Shown here: piece after piece, positions 5,236-50,162 of the stretch
Position numbering within the stretch: position 1 is the stretch's first letter
Layout: each line of letters opens with the position of its first letter
NCBI GenBank assembly: GCA_030670545.1
Contig: DAOVBM010000006.1
Location: forward strand, 1-53,826
Direction: 5' to 3'
Source: Candidatus Woesearchaeota archaeon
GTDB taxonomy: Archaea; Nanobdellota; Nanobdellia; Woesearchaeales; JAGLGH01
Length of the DNA stretch: 53,826 nucleotides
Program-made: the position numbers and the translations under genes
Notes under the pieces: generated by a model
What the model saw: the letters and a program-made list of their open reading frames with translations, nothing else
Told to the model about the DNA's origin: nothing
Databases searched by the model: none

Positions 5236-5311
5236 TATTGATGCTAAACCTCATAAAGGATTGCAAGGCAATTTTTGATGGTATTGGTATCCGCAGGCAG
5301 TTCCAAAACAA

Positions 5312-5484
5312 TAAGTAAAAAGTCTGCTACTCAAGGAGCACCAGCATCATCAGGTCAAAACTCCATTGATTTCCCCTCCTGCTCGTCGCGAGGGGTCGCT
5401 CCATTCGGGAACGCAGAGCCCTCTAAAGATACATCTAGAGTTTTGAAGATGCTTGTGCTCTGTTATATCTGACTTTTTACTTAC
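5312..5484 (+). repeat. Palindromic MITE-like element, copy C (type copy)
   Basis: This 173-bp element begins TAAGTAAAAAGTC (5312-5324) and ends GACTTTTTACTTAC (5471-5484), perfect 13-base inverted termini. Inside, GGAGCACCAGCATC pairs with GATGCTTGTGCTC and CAAAACT with AGTTTTG; the core holds CTGC/GCAG and GC-rich stems. CCAAAACAA occurs immediately left (5303-5311) and right (5485-5493), a perfect 9-base duplication expected from staggered transposon insertion. There is no coding potential. Copies at 1, 805, 8901, 22438 and 40327 have the same orientation. It behaves like a non-autonomous transposable element; a transcribed structured RNA is an alternative or additional role. Confidence 0.9.
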
Positions 5485-5531
5485 CCAAAACAAAAACATT
5501 TTTATATTATTATTTAAAATTCTTTTTTTAA

Positions 5532-5983: not shown

Positions 5984-6507
5984 AGTAATCTGTTAATAGG
6001 GCCATAATCTTTTCTGTTAGGCCATTCACCCTCATTTTTTTGTTTTATTTTTCCTCCAAATAGATGGGTATCTGTATTAATAGATGCGGCATTAACCAAT
6101 GTGGCTAAATTTGAAAACATTTCCTTTTCACATGCTTCATCAATAATAAAATCATAGCCTTTATAGAAATATACTCCTGTTGAATCAAAATATCCTCTTG
6201 TAAGGGTAGTCATTAAAGAATCCTCTTTAGAGTTCATCCAGCATTCAAGTTCAAACCATTTTGCATGTGAATATGTTACTTTTTCGGAAGCTAAGTATAA
6301 TGTATTATCTTTGATTGCAAACATCCTTCTTGAGGCATGAAATGATTTGACATTTGAACTAGAGGAATCAATCCCATATCTTTGGTCATATGCTTTTTCG
6401 TCCATATCTAGTGAAAGTGAATAGCCTTTTATTAATCTTTTGCTAGTTTCTCCCATCACTTTTATAAATCCTCTTCTATTCTTTATGTATGATGGAAAAG
6501 CTTCCAA
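5980..6507 (-). CDS. Unrecognised 175-residue protein, partner of the antitoxin-like gene
   Basis: A soluble protein with mixed alpha/beta composition, many aromatic residues and no recognised motif. A central AKWFELECW..SKEDSL segment and FYKGYDFIIDEA are the most distinctive parts. It is coupled by a GTGA overlap to the 52-residue antitoxin-like gene. Its first codons (ATG at 6507) overlap the start of the divergent Hel308-like reading frame by 19 bases. A later ATG at 6456 would remove that overlap, but the intervening sequence reads like coding DNA. The pair occupies exactly the place where the missing first RecA domain of the neighbouring helicase would be, so it may have arrived by replacement. 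Confidence 0.55.
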   Translation of the reverse strand: MEAFPSYIKNRRGFIKVMGETSKRLIKGYSLSLDMDEKAYDQRYGIDSSSSNVKSFHASRRMFAIKDNTLYLASEKVTYSHAKWFELECWMNSKEDSLMTTLTRGYFDSTGVYFYKGYDFIIDEACEKEMFSNLATLVNAASINTDTHLFGGKIKQKNEGEWPNRKDYGPINRLL

Positions 6508-8777
6508 TAAAGCAGATAACCTCAGACCCTACTATAAACATAGCATTAGATACATTAGAAAAAGGCAAGCAGGCTCTGGTGTTTGCAAATACAAAAAGGA
6601 GCGCTGAAAAAGCTGCAGAAGATATTAGCAAAAAGGTAAAGCCACCATCTGCTGATATACCTGTCCTTGAAAAGCTTTCAGAAAAAGCATTGAAATCACT
6701 TAGCAGGCCTACTAAGCAGTGCCATCGCCTTGCAAGATGCATAAAAAAAGGGATTGCTTTCCATCATGCTGGCTTGATTACTGCGCAAAGAGATATTGTT
6801 GAGACTGGGTTTAAAGACAGAATAATAAAGATAATATGCTGCACGCCAACTTTGGCAGCAGGATTGGATTTGCCAGCATTCCGAACAATCCTCAAAGATC
6901 TTAGGAGATTCGGAATTCACGGTCTGAAGTATATCCCTACATTAGAATACCTTCAGATGGCTGGCAGGGCAGGAAGGCCGAGATATGATAAGTGGGGGGA
7001 AGCGATAGCAATATGCAAATCTCCTGTAGAAAAGGATGAGATTATTGAAAGATATATCTATGGAAAGCCAGAGGATATCTATTCAAAGCTTGCAGTAGAG
7101 CCTGTGCTAAGGACATATCTTCTCTCATTAATAGCCGGAAATTTCGTAAGGACAAAGAAGCAGATAATAGATTTCTTTGAAAAGACATTTTGGGCATACC
7201 AGTTCCAGGATATGGCGCGTCTGAATGAGATTATCGCAAGGATGCTTGCCAGGCTTGAAGAGTGGAAGTTTTTGAGTTCATTGAGCTCATCTGGATCGCA
7301 GAACAATGCTGGTCAGCAGGATTTCATTTCTGCTGCAGACCTGCAAAAAGCAGTGAAAAATGAAGAAGAGCAGGGCATAAGATACACAGCAACTCCTGCA
7401 GGAAAAAGGGTTGCAGAAATATATATTGATCCTTTGACAGCGCATGAGATAATAGAATGCCTAAAGACAGCTATTGCCAAACCAATTCACGCTTTCTCAT
7501 TCCTCCAGATGGTATCCAGCGCTCTTGAGATAAGGCCGCAGTTGAAAGTAAGGATAAAAGAGCAGGAAGAAATACAGGAAGAGCTCTTGAAGTATGGAAG
7601 CTGTCTTCTTGCAGATGAGCCTTCAATGTTTGACGAATCTTATAGTGATTTTCTTAATTCAGTCAAGACAGCGCTTTTTTTCAATGACTGGATAGAGGAG
7701 AAGGATGAAGAATTCCTCCTTGAGAAGTATAAAATAACCCCTGGTGAGATAAGAGTTAAGCTTGGCACTGCTGACTGGCTGCTCTATGCATCTGCAGAGC
7801 TTGCAAGGCTGAGTCATTTCCAGCCTCTTATCAAGGAAATAAACAAGCTGAGGCTCAGGATAAAGCACGGAGCTAAAGAAGAGCTTCTCACATTGCTTAA
7901 GCTGAAGAGGATTGGAAGAGTCAGGGCAAGAAAGATGTTTAACAATAAGATAAAGATAATCAGTGATGTAAAAGAAGCATCCATAACTACATTAGTCCAG
8001 CTAATCGGAAGGGCAGCAGCGATAAGTGTAAAAGAGCAGGTAGGAGTGCATATAGATAAGGAAAAAGTGCCGAAAGGAAAAAGAGTAGGCCAGCTTAGCC
8101 TTGAGAAATACCAGCAAAAAACAAAAAGCAAAAAAACAGATGGAAAGAAAATGAAACAAGTAATTACAAGGGATAACTCAATAACCTTATTCAATGAAAA
8201 ATACCAGGAGCATTACCATTCCCACACAGTTGGAGCTATAGAAGAGGCTTTTGTGAAGTTTGCAAAGCCTTGTAAGGTAAGGGATGGGATTAAAATACTT
8301 GATGTCTGTTTTGGATTAGGATATAATTCTCTTGCTGCTATCAGTTTTTCAAAAAAGTTAGAGATTATCGGATTAGAAAATGATAAAAATATATTAGAAA
8401 AGATTTCAGAGATTGAAGTCCCTGAAAGATATAAAGAAGATTATAAGATAATAAAACAAGCAGCCAAAGTCCTGAAATATGATGGGCAGAATCTGAAGAT
8501 AAAAATAATCCCTGGAGATGCAAGAGAAACAATAAAACAGGCAGGCAGCGAATTTGATGCAGTGTTCCTTGACCCATTCTCTCCTAAAAGATGCCCTGAG
8601 TTATGGACCAGAGAATTCTTTGATGATATATACAGGATAATGAACAAAGGAGCTGTACTTGCAACTTATTCCTGCGCAACTATTGTAAGAAAGAACCTGA
8701 AAGAAGCAGGATTTATTGTAAAAGACGGCCCAATATTCGGCAGGAAAAGCCCTGCCACGATAGCTATAAAGGAATAA
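6489..8777 (+). CDS. Hel308-like helicase lacking RecA1, fused to an MnmC-like methyltransferase
   Basis: The 762-residue frame opens at helicase motif IV (ALVFANTKRSAEKAA, about residues 28-42), continues with CTPTLAAGLDLPA and QMAGRAGRP (V, VI; near 118-165), a winged-helix region and a helix-hairpin-helix (LKRIGRVRARKMF), the order seen in Hel308. Motif I, DEAH and the rest of RecA1 are absent, so ATP hydrolysis is not expected from this chain alone. From about residue 555 the sequence changes to an MnmC/DUF752-type SAM methyltransferase: TLFNEKYQEHYHS, LDVCFGLGYNS, and VFLDPFSPKRCPELWT. ATG at 8151 could start that domain separately. A TTTATAAAT box near 6461-6469 precedes the first ATG. 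An in-frame stop at 6465 rules out a longer N-terminus in this frame. Confidence 0.75.
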   Translation: MMEKLPIKQITSDPTINIALDTLEKGKQALVFANTKRSAEKAAEDISKKVKPPSADIPVLEKLSEKALKSLSRPTKQCHRLARCIKKGIAFHHAGLITAQRDIVETGFKDRIIKIICCTPTLAAGLDLPAFRTILKDLRRFGIHGLKYIPTLEYLQMAGRAGRPRYDKWGEAIAICKSPVEKDEIIERYIYGKPEDIYSKLAVEPVLRTYLLSLIAGNFVRTKKQIIDFFEKTFWAYQFQDMARLNEIIARMLARLEEWKFLSSLSSSGSQNNAGQQDFISAADLQKAVKNEEEQGIRYTATPAGKRVAEIYIDPLTAHEIIECLKTAIAKPIHAFSFLQMVSSALEIRPQLKVRIKEQEEIQEELLKYGSCLLADEPSMFDESYSDFLNSVKTALFFNDWIEEKDEEFLLEKYKITPGEIRVKLGTADWLLYASAELARLSHFQPLIKEINKLRLRIKHGAKEELLTLLKLKRIGRVRARKMFNNKIKIISDVKEASITTLVQLIGRAAAISVKEQVGVHIDKEKVPKGKRVGQLSLEKYQQKTKSKKTDGKKMKQVITRDNSITLFNEKYQEHYHSHTVGAIEEAFVKFAKPCKVRDGIKILDVCFGLGYNSLAAISFSKKLEIIGLENDKNILEKISEIEVPERYKEDYKIIKQAAKVLKYDGQNLKIKIIPGDARETIKQAGSEFDAVFLDPFSPKRCPELWTREFFDDIYRIMNKGAVLATYSCATIVRKNLKEAGFIVKDGPIFGRKSPATIAIKE

Positions 8778-8778
8778 A

Positions 8779-8852
8779 CGCCCCTGCCGGGATTTGAACC
8801 CGGGTAGCAGCCTCCGCAAGGCTGTATCATATCCAGACTAGACCACAGGGGC
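8779..8852 (-). tRNA. tRNA-Arg (anticodon GCG)
   Basis: On the minus strand a 74-base cloverleaf: acceptor GCCCCTG/CAGGGGC with a G discriminator, D arm GGTCTAG..GGATATGAT, anticodon stem CAGCC/GGCTG around the 7-base loop TTGCGGA, and T arm CCGGG/CCCGG with loop TTCAAAT. With U33 fixed, the anticodon is GCG, which reads CGC/CGU arginine codons. No intron and no encoded CCA are present. The 3' end lies one base beyond the stop of the convergent helicase fusion gene. The D arm resembles tRNA-Pro, so an automated scan should confirm identity. Confidence 0.88.
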
Positions 8853-8900
8853 AATAGAATTAGTTAATTAGCCTGAGTTTAAAAATCATTCTAGAAATAG

Positions 8901-9123
8901 TAAGTAAAAAGTCTGCTACTCAAGGAGCACCAGCATCATCAGGTCAAAACTCCATTGATTTTCCCTCCTGCTCGTCGCGAGGGGTCGCTCCATTCGGGAA
9001 CGCAGAGCCCTCTAAAAACACATCTAGAGTAGTTGGAGAGCAAAGCTCTCTAACTTCTTAATGAGCTACGCTCATCAAGATTTGAAGATGCTTGTGCTCC
9101 GTTATATCTGACTTTTTACTTAC
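8901..9123 (+). repeat. Palindromic MITE-like element, copy D with extra hairpins
   Basis: Same family and orientation as 5312-5484, with perfect 13-base inverted termini (8901-8913 and 9110-9122). The flanks share TAGAAAT (8892-8898 and 9124-9130), consistent with an 8-9 base target duplication that has partly decayed. Relative to copy C, about 50 extra bases sit in the right half, forming two perfect hairpins: GTTGGAGAGC/GCTCTCTAAC and ATGAGC/GCTCAT (about 9029-9080). It lies between tRNA-Arg and the nitroreductase gene. Confidence 0.9.
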
Positions 9124-9145
9124 TAGAAATTACCAACCATTAATC

Positions 9146-15713: not shown

Positions 15714-15885
15714 TTATCGAAAATTTCGCAAGAAATTTTATTGGGGTTTAATACCCCTCACTTCAGTGCGAAATTTTGGATTCCAAAAATTTGATAATCT
15801 ATAATGCAAATCCGTAATACTCCACCATTTATGGTGGGGATAGGATTTGCGATCAATAAATTGTCAAATTTTCGTTATAATTATG
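15714..15885. repeat. Second palindromic repeat family, full copy
   Basis: A hairpin-dense element between the ssDNA-binding protein gene and glyS, ending just inside the glyS stop. Its outer arms are inverted repeats (CGAAAATTT at 15718-15726 against AAATTTTCG near 15868-15876). Inside are AATTTCGCA/TGCGAAATT, GGGGTTTAATACCCC, GCAAATCC/GGATTTGC and CCACCATTTATGGTGG. Positions 15714-15759 are identical over 46 bases to 30297-30342. It has no coding content. It resembles a palindromic mobile element or an RNA structure or terminator upstream of the minus-strand gene. Confidence 0.75.
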
Positions 15886-22391: not shown

Positions 22392-22437
22392 ATATGTATG
22401 TAATGATATTGGTGTTTATAATCTTTTCTTTTTCTGG

Positions 22438-22610
22438 TAAGTAAAAAGTCTGCAATTCAAGGAGCACTAGCATCATCAGGTCAAAACTCCTTCAATAATT
22501 ACATCCTGCTCGTCGCAGGGGGAAGCCCCATCCGGGGACGCAGAGCCCTCTAAAAACACATCAAGAGTTTTGAAGATGCTTGTGCTCCGTGACATCTGAT
22601 TTTTACTTAC
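22438..22610 (+). repeat. Palindromic MITE-like element, copy E
   Basis: A 173-base copy of the family, same orientation. The left terminus TAAGTAAAAAGTC pairs with GATTTTTACTTA on the right with one base missing. TTTTTCTG occurs directly on both sides (22429-22436 and 22611-22618), an 8-base duplication that supports insertion by transposition. The core stem here is GGGGGAAGCCCCATCCGGGG. It lies between the divergent membrane-protein gene and the HTH-CBS regulator gene. Confidence 0.9.
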
Positions 22611-22729
22611 TTTTTCTGCCCCAGAATCCAAGTGTATTGTCCATAAAAAATAAGGCTTAATCCTGTTTGTGGACAATAATATTTATCTTATAATCTTTTC
22701 AGCCAACTTTTAATGAATTATTCCAAAAA

Positions 22730-25177: not shown

Positions 25178-25291
25178 TGCGCCGGCCGGGATTCGAACCC
25201 GGATCAAAGGCTGTCTTTGCGAAACAAAGATCCATATGGTCTCTGGTCATCGCATGGAAGGCCTCTATCCTAGCCGTTAGACTACCGGCGC
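25178..25291 (-). tRNA. tRNA-Gly (anticodon UCC) with a 42-base intron
   Basis: On the minus strand, acceptor GCGCCGG/CCGGCGC with A discriminator and T arm CCGGG/CCCGG with loop TTCGAAT are clear. The anticodon stem GAGGC/GCCTT encloses the loop CTTCCA plus one base after an insertion. The intron (25213-25254) begins after position 37. Its ends form a bulge-helix-bulge: CUU pairs with AAG next to the exon, and GCGA pairs with UCGC inside, leaving 3-base bulges CAU and ACA. Splicing by the archaeal endonuclease gives a 72-base tRNA reading GGA. No CCA is encoded. Confidence 0.88.
25213..25254 (-). other. tRNA-Gly intron at canonical position 37/38
   Basis: A 42-base insertion bounded by a bulge-helix-bulge motif; the internal stem GCGA/UCGC lies close to its ends. 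Placement after position 37 is the standard archaeal site. Boundaries are by pairing and could shift by one base. Confidence 0.72.
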
Positions 25292-30296: not shown

Positions 30297-30342
30297 TTAT
30301 CGAAAATTTCGCAAGAAATTTTATTGGGGTTTAATACCCCTC
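30297..30342. repeat. Second palindromic repeat family, short copy
   Basis: Forty-six bases identical to 15714-15759, containing the hairpins AATTTCGCAAGAAATT and GGGGTTTAATACCCC, followed by unrelated AT-rich DNA. It lies 70 bases upstream of the transglutaminase gene and 49 upstream of the divergent small gene at 30391. In both cases in this window the shared block lies directly 5' of a minus-strand gene. Confidence 0.75.
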
Positions 30343-31767: not shown

Positions 31768-31815
31768 TTTTGATGATGCTTGTGCTCCTTTATATATGAC
31801 TAAATAGATACTTTA
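31768..31815 (+). repeat. Degenerate right end of the MITE-like family
   Basis: GATGATGCTTGTGCTCC followed by TTTATATATGACTAAATAGATAC corresponds to the right arm of copy F (40594-40625), with the variant end TATATAACTAAATA in place of the usual TCTGACTTTTTACTT. The rest of the element is not recognisable in 31600-31767, apart from a small AAAACCC/GGGGTTTT hairpin. It is a remnant or a 3' half of an older copy. Confidence 0.55.
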
Positions 31816-31822
31816 AATCAAT

Positions 31823-34275: not shown

Positions 34276-35100
34276 ATTTTGTTAATATTTTCTCACTTGA
34301 TAAGTAAATCACTCTTAAATCCCTATAATCCTGCTGTAATCATGTTGTCATGAAGGGTATTTTGCGCAAATAAAATCTCACTTTTTGCCTTCTGTTTCAT
34401 GTTTTTTGTTATTTTTGGTCAGATTTTTAATAAATCCTCTGATCAAGCTGAATGTCTTGTCTTGATCTTGGCTCACTTTTTGCGAATTCTTTATGTATTC
34501 ATCTTGCATTCTTTTCCGCATTTTCTGGCTGGGCTGATCTTGATTCTTTCTTTATTTTTATCTGCCTTTCCTTTTTTTTGTCTTTATTATCTGCTTCTTT
34601 TTGTCCTTCTTGCTAACCTAAATATAAACTTTGTCATTCCCACGTTTCATCCGCCTCATTCCCACTTTGGGAATGTTGGGAATGACTTAAACTTCCCTAA
34701 TTCTTATCCCTATTTTTCATTCCTCGTCGCTAAACTACTTTCTTTTCTTCTTCTCATTCCCTTTATATTCCCAATTCATTCCTAACGTTCCCATCATTCC
34801 CAGTTTGGGAATGAACTCTCTTTATCCTCTTTCTCTTTTTTTAGTCGCTATCTCTCCTCTCTTCCCTCTTTCTCATTCCCAACGTTCCCATCATTCCCAG
34901 TTTGGGACTATCCTGTCTCATTCCCTTTTCTGGCTTGTTTCCCTAGCCTTTCTTTGTACTCTTTGTATTCTTGCTCCCTATTCCCTCTTAATTTTCTCCC
35001 TCTCCTTTTTCTTCTCTTGTCTCATTTTGTCATTCCCAACGTTCCCATCATTCCCAAAAAAGCGAAAGATATAAATATCTGGGAATGAAATCTCCCTAAT
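34276..35100. other. 825-base spacer, pyrimidine-rich, with repeated CATTCCC motif
   Basis: Between the METTL5-like gene and the HTH gene the plus strand is strongly pyrimidine-rich. From about 34630 to 35090 it repeats CATTCCC and its reverse GGGAATG many times. A longer unit, CATTCC(C/T)AACGTTCCCATC plus ATTCCCA, occurs near 34773, 34880 and 35032, two of them followed by GTTTGGGA(AT). On the minus strand only short peptides are open, each soon after GGGAATG. A TATA box (GATATAAATAT, near 35068-35078) for the HTH gene lies at its right edge. It looks like a regulatory array or a decayed repetitive gene. Confidence 0.7.
34378..34521 (-). CDS. Possible 47-residue basic peptide or gene remnant
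   Basis: An open frame with start ATG at 34521, ending TGA at 34378. Its C-terminal half SLIRGFIKNLTKNNKKHETEGKK reads like the end of a larger basic protein. Upstream of it the frame is closed by a stop. Codon pattern is A-rich, in line with the purine bias of this strand, which by itself can create open frames. No promoter or ribosome site is clear. I report it as a possible small gene or the decayed tail of one. Confidence 0.25.
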   Translation of the reverse strand: MRKRMQDEYIKNSQKVSQDQDKTFSLIRGFIKNLTKNNKKHETEGKK

Positions 35101-40279: not shown

Positions 40280-40326
40280 TACTATTGAGAATGAGTGGTT
40301 TGTTTATAAAATTTGTTGTTTTTTTG

Positions 40327-40625
40327 TAAGTAAAAAGTCTGCTATTCAAGGAGCACCAGCATCATCAGTCAAAACTTAATCCTATTCCTTATCCTGCTCG
40401 TCGCGGGGGGTTGTCCCCAAACTTTAACAAAGTTTGATCAAAGGTGGTGTGACACAAGGTCACACTTCGCGGCTTTCAATAAGACTTAATTGCCGCGTAG
40501 TGGAGCTTCATGCTCCACCTTGCGTGTCAACCGAGCGTAACCAGTTGACGGGGACGCAGAGCCTTCTAAAAATACTTCATGAGATTTGAAGATGCTTGTG
40601 CTCCGTTATATATAACTAAATAAAT
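40327..40625 (+). repeat. Palindromic MITE-like element, copy F (long variant)
   Basis: A copy of about 299 bases, same orientation as the rest. The left end TAAGTAAAAAGTC (40327-40339) is intact; the right end reads TATATAACTAAATA instead of TCTGACTTTTTACTT, as in the remnant at 31768. The central 136 bases (40434-40569) equal positions 1-136 and form a chain of perfect hairpins including AAACTTTAACAAAGTTT, GTGTGAC/GTCACAC, CGCGGC/GCCGCG, GTGGAGC/GCTCCAC and GTCAAC/GTTGAC, inside a GTCCCC/GGGGAC stem. No target duplication is visible. Confidence 0.85.
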
Positions 40626-40695
40626 ACAGAATTCTGGGCTTGATTAATAATCTTATCAATCATATTTATATATAACTCCATGTTAATCAACTCCA

Positions 40696-48946: not shown

Positions 48947-48970
48947 AATTATCCCTCCAGTCTATGTTTT

Positions 48971-49077
48971 CATCAATGAAAAATTTGTAGAATAAATATC
49001 TTACAGCGAGTTGGCAAGTGGCAAGTGATATGATTTCCGGGATTGTTGGAGAATTTTCGGATTAGGGTGTTAATTAT
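48971..49077 (-). repeat. 107-bp leader repeat before the DinD/BRO gene
   Basis: This block equals 50026-50132 at 100 of 107 positions, with no gaps; six of the seven differences fall between 48999 and 49012. It lies 25-131 bases upstream of the start at 48946. It contains tandem TGGCAAG repeats and AT-rich DNA, and no coding frame. The same placement upstream of two related genes indicates a duplicated gene-plus-promoter cassette or a conserved regulatory leader. Confidence 0.8.
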
Positions 49078-49109
49078 TATAGAAAAGCGAAAGAGTAGAT
49101 ACTAATGGT

Positions 49110-50006: not shown

Positions 50007-50025
50007 CTTTATACCTTAAACTTAT

Positions 50026-50132
50026 CATCAATGAAAAATTTGTAGAATAAATAGTTTACACCTATGTGGCAAGTGGCAAGTGATATGATTTCCGGGATTG
50101 TTGGAGAATTTTCGGATTAGGGTATTAATTAT
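50026..50132 (-). repeat. 107-bp leader repeat before the ORF6N gene
   Basis: Second copy of the block at 48971-49077 (100 of 107 identical, ungapped). It lies 20-126 bases upstream of the ORF6N start at 50006. On the minus strand it contains ACTTGCC twice in tandem (around 50068-50082), a possible operator, with the AT-rich gene-proximal end to the right. No coding potential. Confidence 0.8.
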
Positions 50133-50162
50133 ATTCGACAATCATGAGGTGTAATATTACTC

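Follow-up and report, generated by a model that had tools for sequence, protein, structure and literature searches.

A promoter-upstream miniature transposon of a woesearchaeotal archaeon as a probable scaffold for mobile hairpin cassettes

The short interspersed elements described here, which we call MITE-1, are probably non-autonomous IS66-type transposons that act as modular scaffolds, gaining and exchanging mobile hairpin cassettes. We have analysed a window of 53,826 nucleotides (the whole stretch of DNA under study) from the genome of a DPANN archaeon (G000, 1.48 Mb in 88 contigs, assembly 93% complete), with its sister species G001 as the sole genus-mate genome compared. A sequence-only reading of the window had proposed that these elements grow by whole, perfect hairpins. 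Size does change in steps of whole hairpins, but the stems contain imperfections, and our verdict is that the copies grow as mobile hairpin cassettes are added to them and exchanged between them, and not by strand-switch copying.

The element under study, copy D, covers positions 8900 to 9123 of the forward strand (224 nt). Its terminal inverted repeats lie at 8900-8913 (left, forward strand, GTAAGTAAAAAGTC, comparable to the GTAAGTAATAAGTC of an IS66 element discussed below) and at 9110-9123 (right, reverse strand), flanked by a target-site duplication, TAGAAATA at 8892-8899 on the left and TAGAAATT at 9124-9131 on the right, that matches at 7 of 8 positions. Further inside there is an inner inverted repeat, with its left arm (GGAGCACCAGCATC) at 8924-8937 and its right arm at 9087-9100 (both given on the forward strand), for which compensatory AGAGCAG/CTGCTCT variants exist, and a conserved core, GCTC-GTCGCGAGGGGTCGCTCCATTCGGGAACGCA-GAGC (8970-9008, forward strand), which is common to woesearchaeotal MITEs with differing ends. 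Two array hairpins follow on the same strand, H1 (AGTTGGAGAGC/GCTCTCTAACT, 9031-9055), with a mispair G9035.T9051, and H4 (CTTAATGAGC/GCTCATCAAG, 9057-9079), inverted with respect to H1 and with a mispair A9060.C9076. These are the two hairpins that copy D had been said to have gained, and they are indeed absent from copy C, which is 96% identical to copy D over the 136 nt preceding the insert. The TATA box of a tRNA-Arg promoter is found 16 nt beyond the left end (8878-8883, reverse strand), with the tRNA-Arg(gcg) gene downstream of it (8778-8853, reverse strand).

The remaining copies in the window are all on the forward strand. Copies B (804-977; right end 14 nt from the TATA at 992-997), C (5311-5484; exact duplication CCAAAACA, TATA 5501-5506) and E (22437-22611; TATA 22415-22420 on the reverse strand) are short forms, while copy F (40326-40627; TATA 40305-40310 on the reverse strand) carries a 130-nt five-hairpin module, M130, at 40418-40548, inside the CCC/GGG apical loop of its core. 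Copy A (1-194) is cut by the contig start within the same module (remnant 1-115). The chain of at least four hairpins that had been read in copies A and F is thus confirmed as this five-hairpin module. Contigs C4, C15, C17, C49 and C77 of the genome begin or stop within M130, so that the truncation of copy A is an assembly break at a repeat. The right-end fragment of a further, degenerate copy lies at 31769-31818. Other features of the window include an ORF (6489-8777) that fuses an archaeal helicase domain (PF21280) to a methyltransferase (PF05430), a tRNA gene with an insertion of ca. 40 nt (25178-25291; matched by Rfam, missed by ARAGORN and probably intron-bearing) and two repeats unrelated to MITE-1, namely a 120-nt direct repeat (48967-49086 and 50022-50141, 90%) and clustered CATTCCCAACGTTCCCATCATTCCCA repeats (34751-35056).

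Genome-wide, about 70 dispersed, gene-less copies of MITE-1 were found in G000. Among the 69 copies with flanks, comparison of the bases adjoining the ends gave an 8-bp duplication that was exact in 37 and matched at 7 or more positions in 50, where ca. 2.2 would be expected from unrelated flank pairs. This excess indicates that the copies have transposed, each as a unit bounded by inverted ends of the GTAAGTAAAAAGTC type. No ORF overlap was seen in 33 of 34 copies and, with terminal inverted repeats, a duplication of fixed length and many dispersed intergenic copies devoid of genes, the family has the properties of a MITE. A complete IS66 element of 1766 bp, with two perfect 14-bp GTAAGTAATAAGTC ends, was found solely in G209 (C81:2-1767), a genome from another genus and family of the same order. 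Its 435-aa transposase matches Pfam PF03050 (4.6e-37) and the NCBIfam IS66 equivalog NF033517 (7e-63), and its 14-bp end is identical to the left end of a MITE-1 copy in the sister species (L031). On these matching ends we class MITE-1 as an IS66-type MITE. Searches for an IS66 gene in G000 and G001 were negative, and a scan of G000 showed no long terminal-repeat pair around a transposase. The mobilizing enzyme would be an IS66 transposase lost from the genome or missing in its assembly, as we infer from the element of the other genus.

The copies of MITE-1 differ from one another by whole cassettes: arrays of two or four hairpins (the latter 100 nt long), the five hairpins of M130, a module of 56 nt, a second MITE and, as a further type, an IS605-like insert. 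The majority are of the short form, with no extra hairpins; the array is present in 18 and the 130-nt module in eight of the 70 parsed copies. The sequence-only reading had held the pairing to be exact, and this has to be abandoned. The DNA retrieved from the two genus-mates contains 92 distinct 10-bp triloop hairpins with no more than one mismatch; 79 of these are mispaired (G.T or A.C) at position 4, as both hairpins of copy D are, and a single one is perfect. The H1 stems are nearly frozen, with one stem mismatch across 37 units in a search that tolerated one per unit, while their 3-nt loops vary. Within arrays, units of the G.T type (H1/H2) come first and those of the A.C type (H3/H4) last, which makes the array an inverted doublet or quartet of a REPIN-like kind. 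All MITE-1 arrays are found at a single helix junction, which lies in the 3' arm; the idea that insertions are confined to loops was dropped on account of this position.

The arrays, M130 and the second MITE are not restricted to MITE-1. Arrays are found outside it in G000 (L187, L189, L190 and, within a second MITE family, L193 and L195) and in the sister species (L164-L168), in two cases (L164, L165) with one array nested inside the hairpin loop of another, and H1 occurs in G013 (L034) between two genes read as rpoA' and rpoA''. Of 60 related genomes, 12 gave matches to M130, and in two of these (G048 and G052) the module occupies the same loop of a core. This distribution implies that the cassettes were inserted or exchanged and not made on the spot. 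Replication by strand switching (template switching), which would create hairpins de novo and keep their arms identical, had been suggested as their source, and it could produce the terminal repeat variants in which both arms are altered jointly (GTAAGTAAAAAG/CTTTTTACTTAC, GTATGTAGAAAG/CTTTCTACATAC) by copying between arms. We consider it very improbable, as the inserted hairpins recur, as cassettes, at unrelated sites in G000, in the sister species and in other genera, one of them of another family, and as mismatches last in the arms and the fixed mispairs persist, which a copying process that perfects palindromes would remove.

The arrays of MITE-1 are 97% alike, versus 81% for the backbones of their hosts, and when array presence was placed on the backbone tree 17 changes were required versus 16.0 with shuffled labels; this tree was built on about 150 nt, so the missing signal may partly reflect poor resolution. 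The identity gap and the lack of tree signal together suggest that cassettes shift between copies, or disappear, as blocks. A different reading of the same lack of signal would be that a site-specific hairpin transposase inserted arrays separately at the same site of different copies, instead of a single insertion followed by exchange. There is precedent for sites of this sort, in that REPs are documented insertion hot spots (PMC1525189), and a second MITE, MITE-2 (ends CAATGTCATTAAGT), entered the same site of the core twice, with distinct 10-bp duplications (GACGCTCCCT and GAAGCCCCCT), which makes the core an insertion hot spot. However, all MITE-1 arrays are at one junction, and their loops are AAA and TAC in nearly all cases while being variable elsewhere, a uniformity that suggests a single origin within MITE-1. 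We thus regard separate insertion as possible but rather doubtful, and favour block exchange.

No enzyme could be identified for the hairpin arrays. The sole Y1_Tnp found in the genome, which would make them palindromic elements derived from IS200/IS605, is probably not their owner, since its own hairpins differ (TGGTC-TTT-GACCA). Several further hairpin blocks were observed in these genomes. At two loci from isolate nzgw59 (L102, L158), a MITE with the core has an inserted array of another hairpin type in its left arm, and this array resembles the hairpins beside H1 in G013. The window contains two identical 46-nt copies (15714-15759 and 30297-30342) of a stretch that includes GGGGTTTAATACCCC, and a similar hairpin adjoins arrays in the sister species (L165, L166). 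By eye, a tRNA-Glu gene of G050 appears to have a block similar to M130 within its anticodon-loop intron (L208:1430-1640), and blocks similar to this one abut tRNA T-loop sequence at L214 and L209. Small hairpin blocks are also found between direct repeats of about 30 bp, far longer than a transposase duplication, in G019 (L211) and G036 (L213); the repeat at L211 is the 3' end of a tRNA-His.

Fold-back structure is under selection, and here the sequence-only reading was borne out. The fold of the element is far beyond chance (RNA z -8.96, DNA z -7.67; 0 of 200 shuffles), and changes in the stems are compensatory. Double changes affect 7 of 32 predicted pairs among 47 short copies, in arms that also keep some persistent mismatches, and several hairpins of M130 are altered on both stem sides between G000 and G048, members of two families. 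For the core, aligned in 64 copies across genomes, 99.7% of cells are paired, with 107 double-change cells versus 35.9 in shuffles, and the covariation score is 0.433 versus 0.04-0.14 for slid versions. One pyrimidine of the core covaries with two purines (A-T-A or G-C-G at alignment columns 17, 26 and 36, with one exception in 70), which supports two mutually exclusive hairpins, GRG/CYC and YCC/GGR. A purine triplex had been considered for this triple and was dropped in favour of the simpler pair of alternative hairpins. Such strong covariation of stems implies that the folded single strand matters, be it RNA or single-stranded DNA.

One explanation would be a constraint at the RNA level, with the MITE transcribed as a structured RNA and the hairpins kept for stability, processing or regulation. 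The covariation of the core with its two exclusive hairpins would fit, and BOX elements are an expressed precedent (PMC3049150). On the forward strand G.U pairs exceed A.C in the arms (19 versus 10) and also in the apical helices; however, the terminal repeats have no strand bias (16 G.T, 18 A.C), and with a bias in arms and apex and none at the ends this strand test is indecisive. Against an RNA, the array hairpins are oppositely oriented, G.T and then A.C, so that neither strand would give a uniform transcript, copies have no orientation bias towards the neighbouring genes (12 ++ and 13 --), and the element matches no Rfam family at gathering score. Hairpins of single-stranded DNA would covary too. 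We hold the RNA explanation to be unlikely, and prefer to see the hairpins as part of mobile cassettes on a transposon scaffold.

The core extends well beyond this genome. Its exact pattern was found in 68 stretches among 84,980 species genomes, each time in an archaeal record of the group, and in the named genome collection its carriers are Woesearchaeota, Nanoarchaeota or records labelled just "archaeon". Within the order, 63 of 353 genomes, or 49 of 220 genera, matched a covariance model of the core; the other lineages scanned and the IMG/VR viral contigs had none. The MITEs that carry it have unrelated ends. Those with GTATKTG ends have 8-bp duplications in seven of eight elements, while those with GGCT ends have 9-bp duplications (at least 8 of 9 positions matching in 9 of 15) and in no case 8 bp. 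The owner of the GGCT class may be IS5/IS903-like; a DDE_Tnp_1 search had matches in five genomes, with no flanking GGCT end pair seen.

These elements also share a position next to promoters. A TWTAWA box starts 8-18 nt outside one end in 59 of 68 MITE-1 copies, compared with 7-13 of 68 for equal windows further out, and the offset is exactly 14 nt in 33 of 65 and 13-16 nt in 57 of 65. A-rich, BRE-like bases precede the TATA, and an ATG is commonly found at 28-34 nt. All five complete copies of the window have a TATA beyond one end, and copies end upstream of promoters in both orientations. Only one of 34 copies lies in a convergent intergenic region. The same tendency is seen for the GGCT class (TATA at 14-17 nt in 11 of 15, controls 0-4) and in the GTATKTG class (near the end in four of eight, controls 0-1), and in core MITEs of both duplication classes the TATA box lies ca. 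6 bp beyond the duplication. Selection alone could have generated the position if insertions elsewhere were lost, since entry upstream of the BRE spares the promoter, and nearly all copies are indeed intergenic (33 of 34). However, this should give a broad upstream spread and the offset is sharp, with the controls far below it, so we find it improbable that selection acted without targeting. Such targeting would be comparable in effect to that of the Ty elements of yeast, which lie upstream of genes transcribed by Pol III. That end classes with different duplication lengths have a common core and target position was unexpected and is to us the most surprising result; the promoter targeting and the sharing of a core among MITEs both appear to be new. 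A tentative idea, about which we have more doubt than confidence, is that the core, a structure specific to Woesearchaeota and carried by MITEs of at least two transposase classes (8- and 9-bp duplications), and not the transposase, recognizes archaeal promoters, e.g., via TBP/TFB, either as selfish targeting or as a regulatory module that would have recruited different transposases and been decorated with mobile hairpin cassettes.

The scenario that we propose for MITE-1 would be as follows. Copies would have been moved to promoter-upstream sites by an IS66 transposase that the assembly no longer contains. The copies would lengthen when small mobile palindromic elements, i.e., REPIN-like inverted doublets, the 130-nt module and the second MITE, enter them, and the cassettes would then be swapped among copies, or lost, as blocks through recombination, which may be why cassette presence does not track the ancestry of the copies. 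Only cassettes or copies whose single strand folds, with the mispair intact, would remain mobile or tolerated, and this could be what makes length changes look like whole hairpins.

Several known systems are reminiscent of parts of this picture. BOX elements of Streptococcus pneumoniae, organized as boxA-boxB(n)-boxC (PMC3049150), offer a mechanistic analogy, being short and interspersed, with inverted ends, target-site duplications and a strong fold, variable in size by whole internal modules and with other small repeats nested inside them. However, BOX repeats a single boxB module, whereas MITE-1 has several unrelated cassettes at different sites, and most kinds of these also live outside it. 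The arrays resemble REPINs and BIMEs (REP doublets; PMC3116915, PMC3733652) in being inverted doublets of short, imperfect, short-loop hairpins, dispersed outside genes and predicted to fold as single-stranded DNA. They differ in that the units start with ACTT or AGTT and have no common GTAG/CGTC tag (GTAG arises only when an AGTT variant adjoins a host G), in that no RAYT/Y1 gene flanked by the array palindrome was found, and in being archaeal and mostly inside a DDE-type MITE. With the IS66 family and its MITEs the likeness is in the GTAA-type ends, the 8-bp duplication and the same kind of 14-bp ends in the G209 element; MITE-1 differs in that no transposase gene was found in its genome, and by a promoter-upstream target and a core that is also found in MITEs of another end class with 9-bp duplications. 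Correia elements (NEMIS) also have short and long versions, of 107 and 155 bp, that differ by a defined internal block (PMC2229807), but it is a single block, and a series of hairpin cassettes sharing a conserved mispair is lacking. Finally, REPs are palindromic targets for IS (PMC1525189) much as the core is for MITE-2, although REPs receive whole IS and MITE-1 receives palindromic cassettes and another MITE. The general modular kind is therefore known (BOX, REPIN, Correia), while an archaeal composite that combines a shared core with a fixed target upstream of promoters appears to be new. A full-text search for DPANN and miniature inverted-repeat elements found no paper in the collection searched.

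Little has been described of the mobile elements of DPANN archaea, and MITE-1 provides a concrete system that can be counted and that allows dispersed copies, shared cassettes, covariation and insertion sites to be studied side by side. From the fixed mispair of the array hairpins we would predict a protein that recognizes a folded strand, either of DNA or of RNA, and the position of the copies makes MITE-1 a case in which DNA transposition close to promoters can be tested in archaea.
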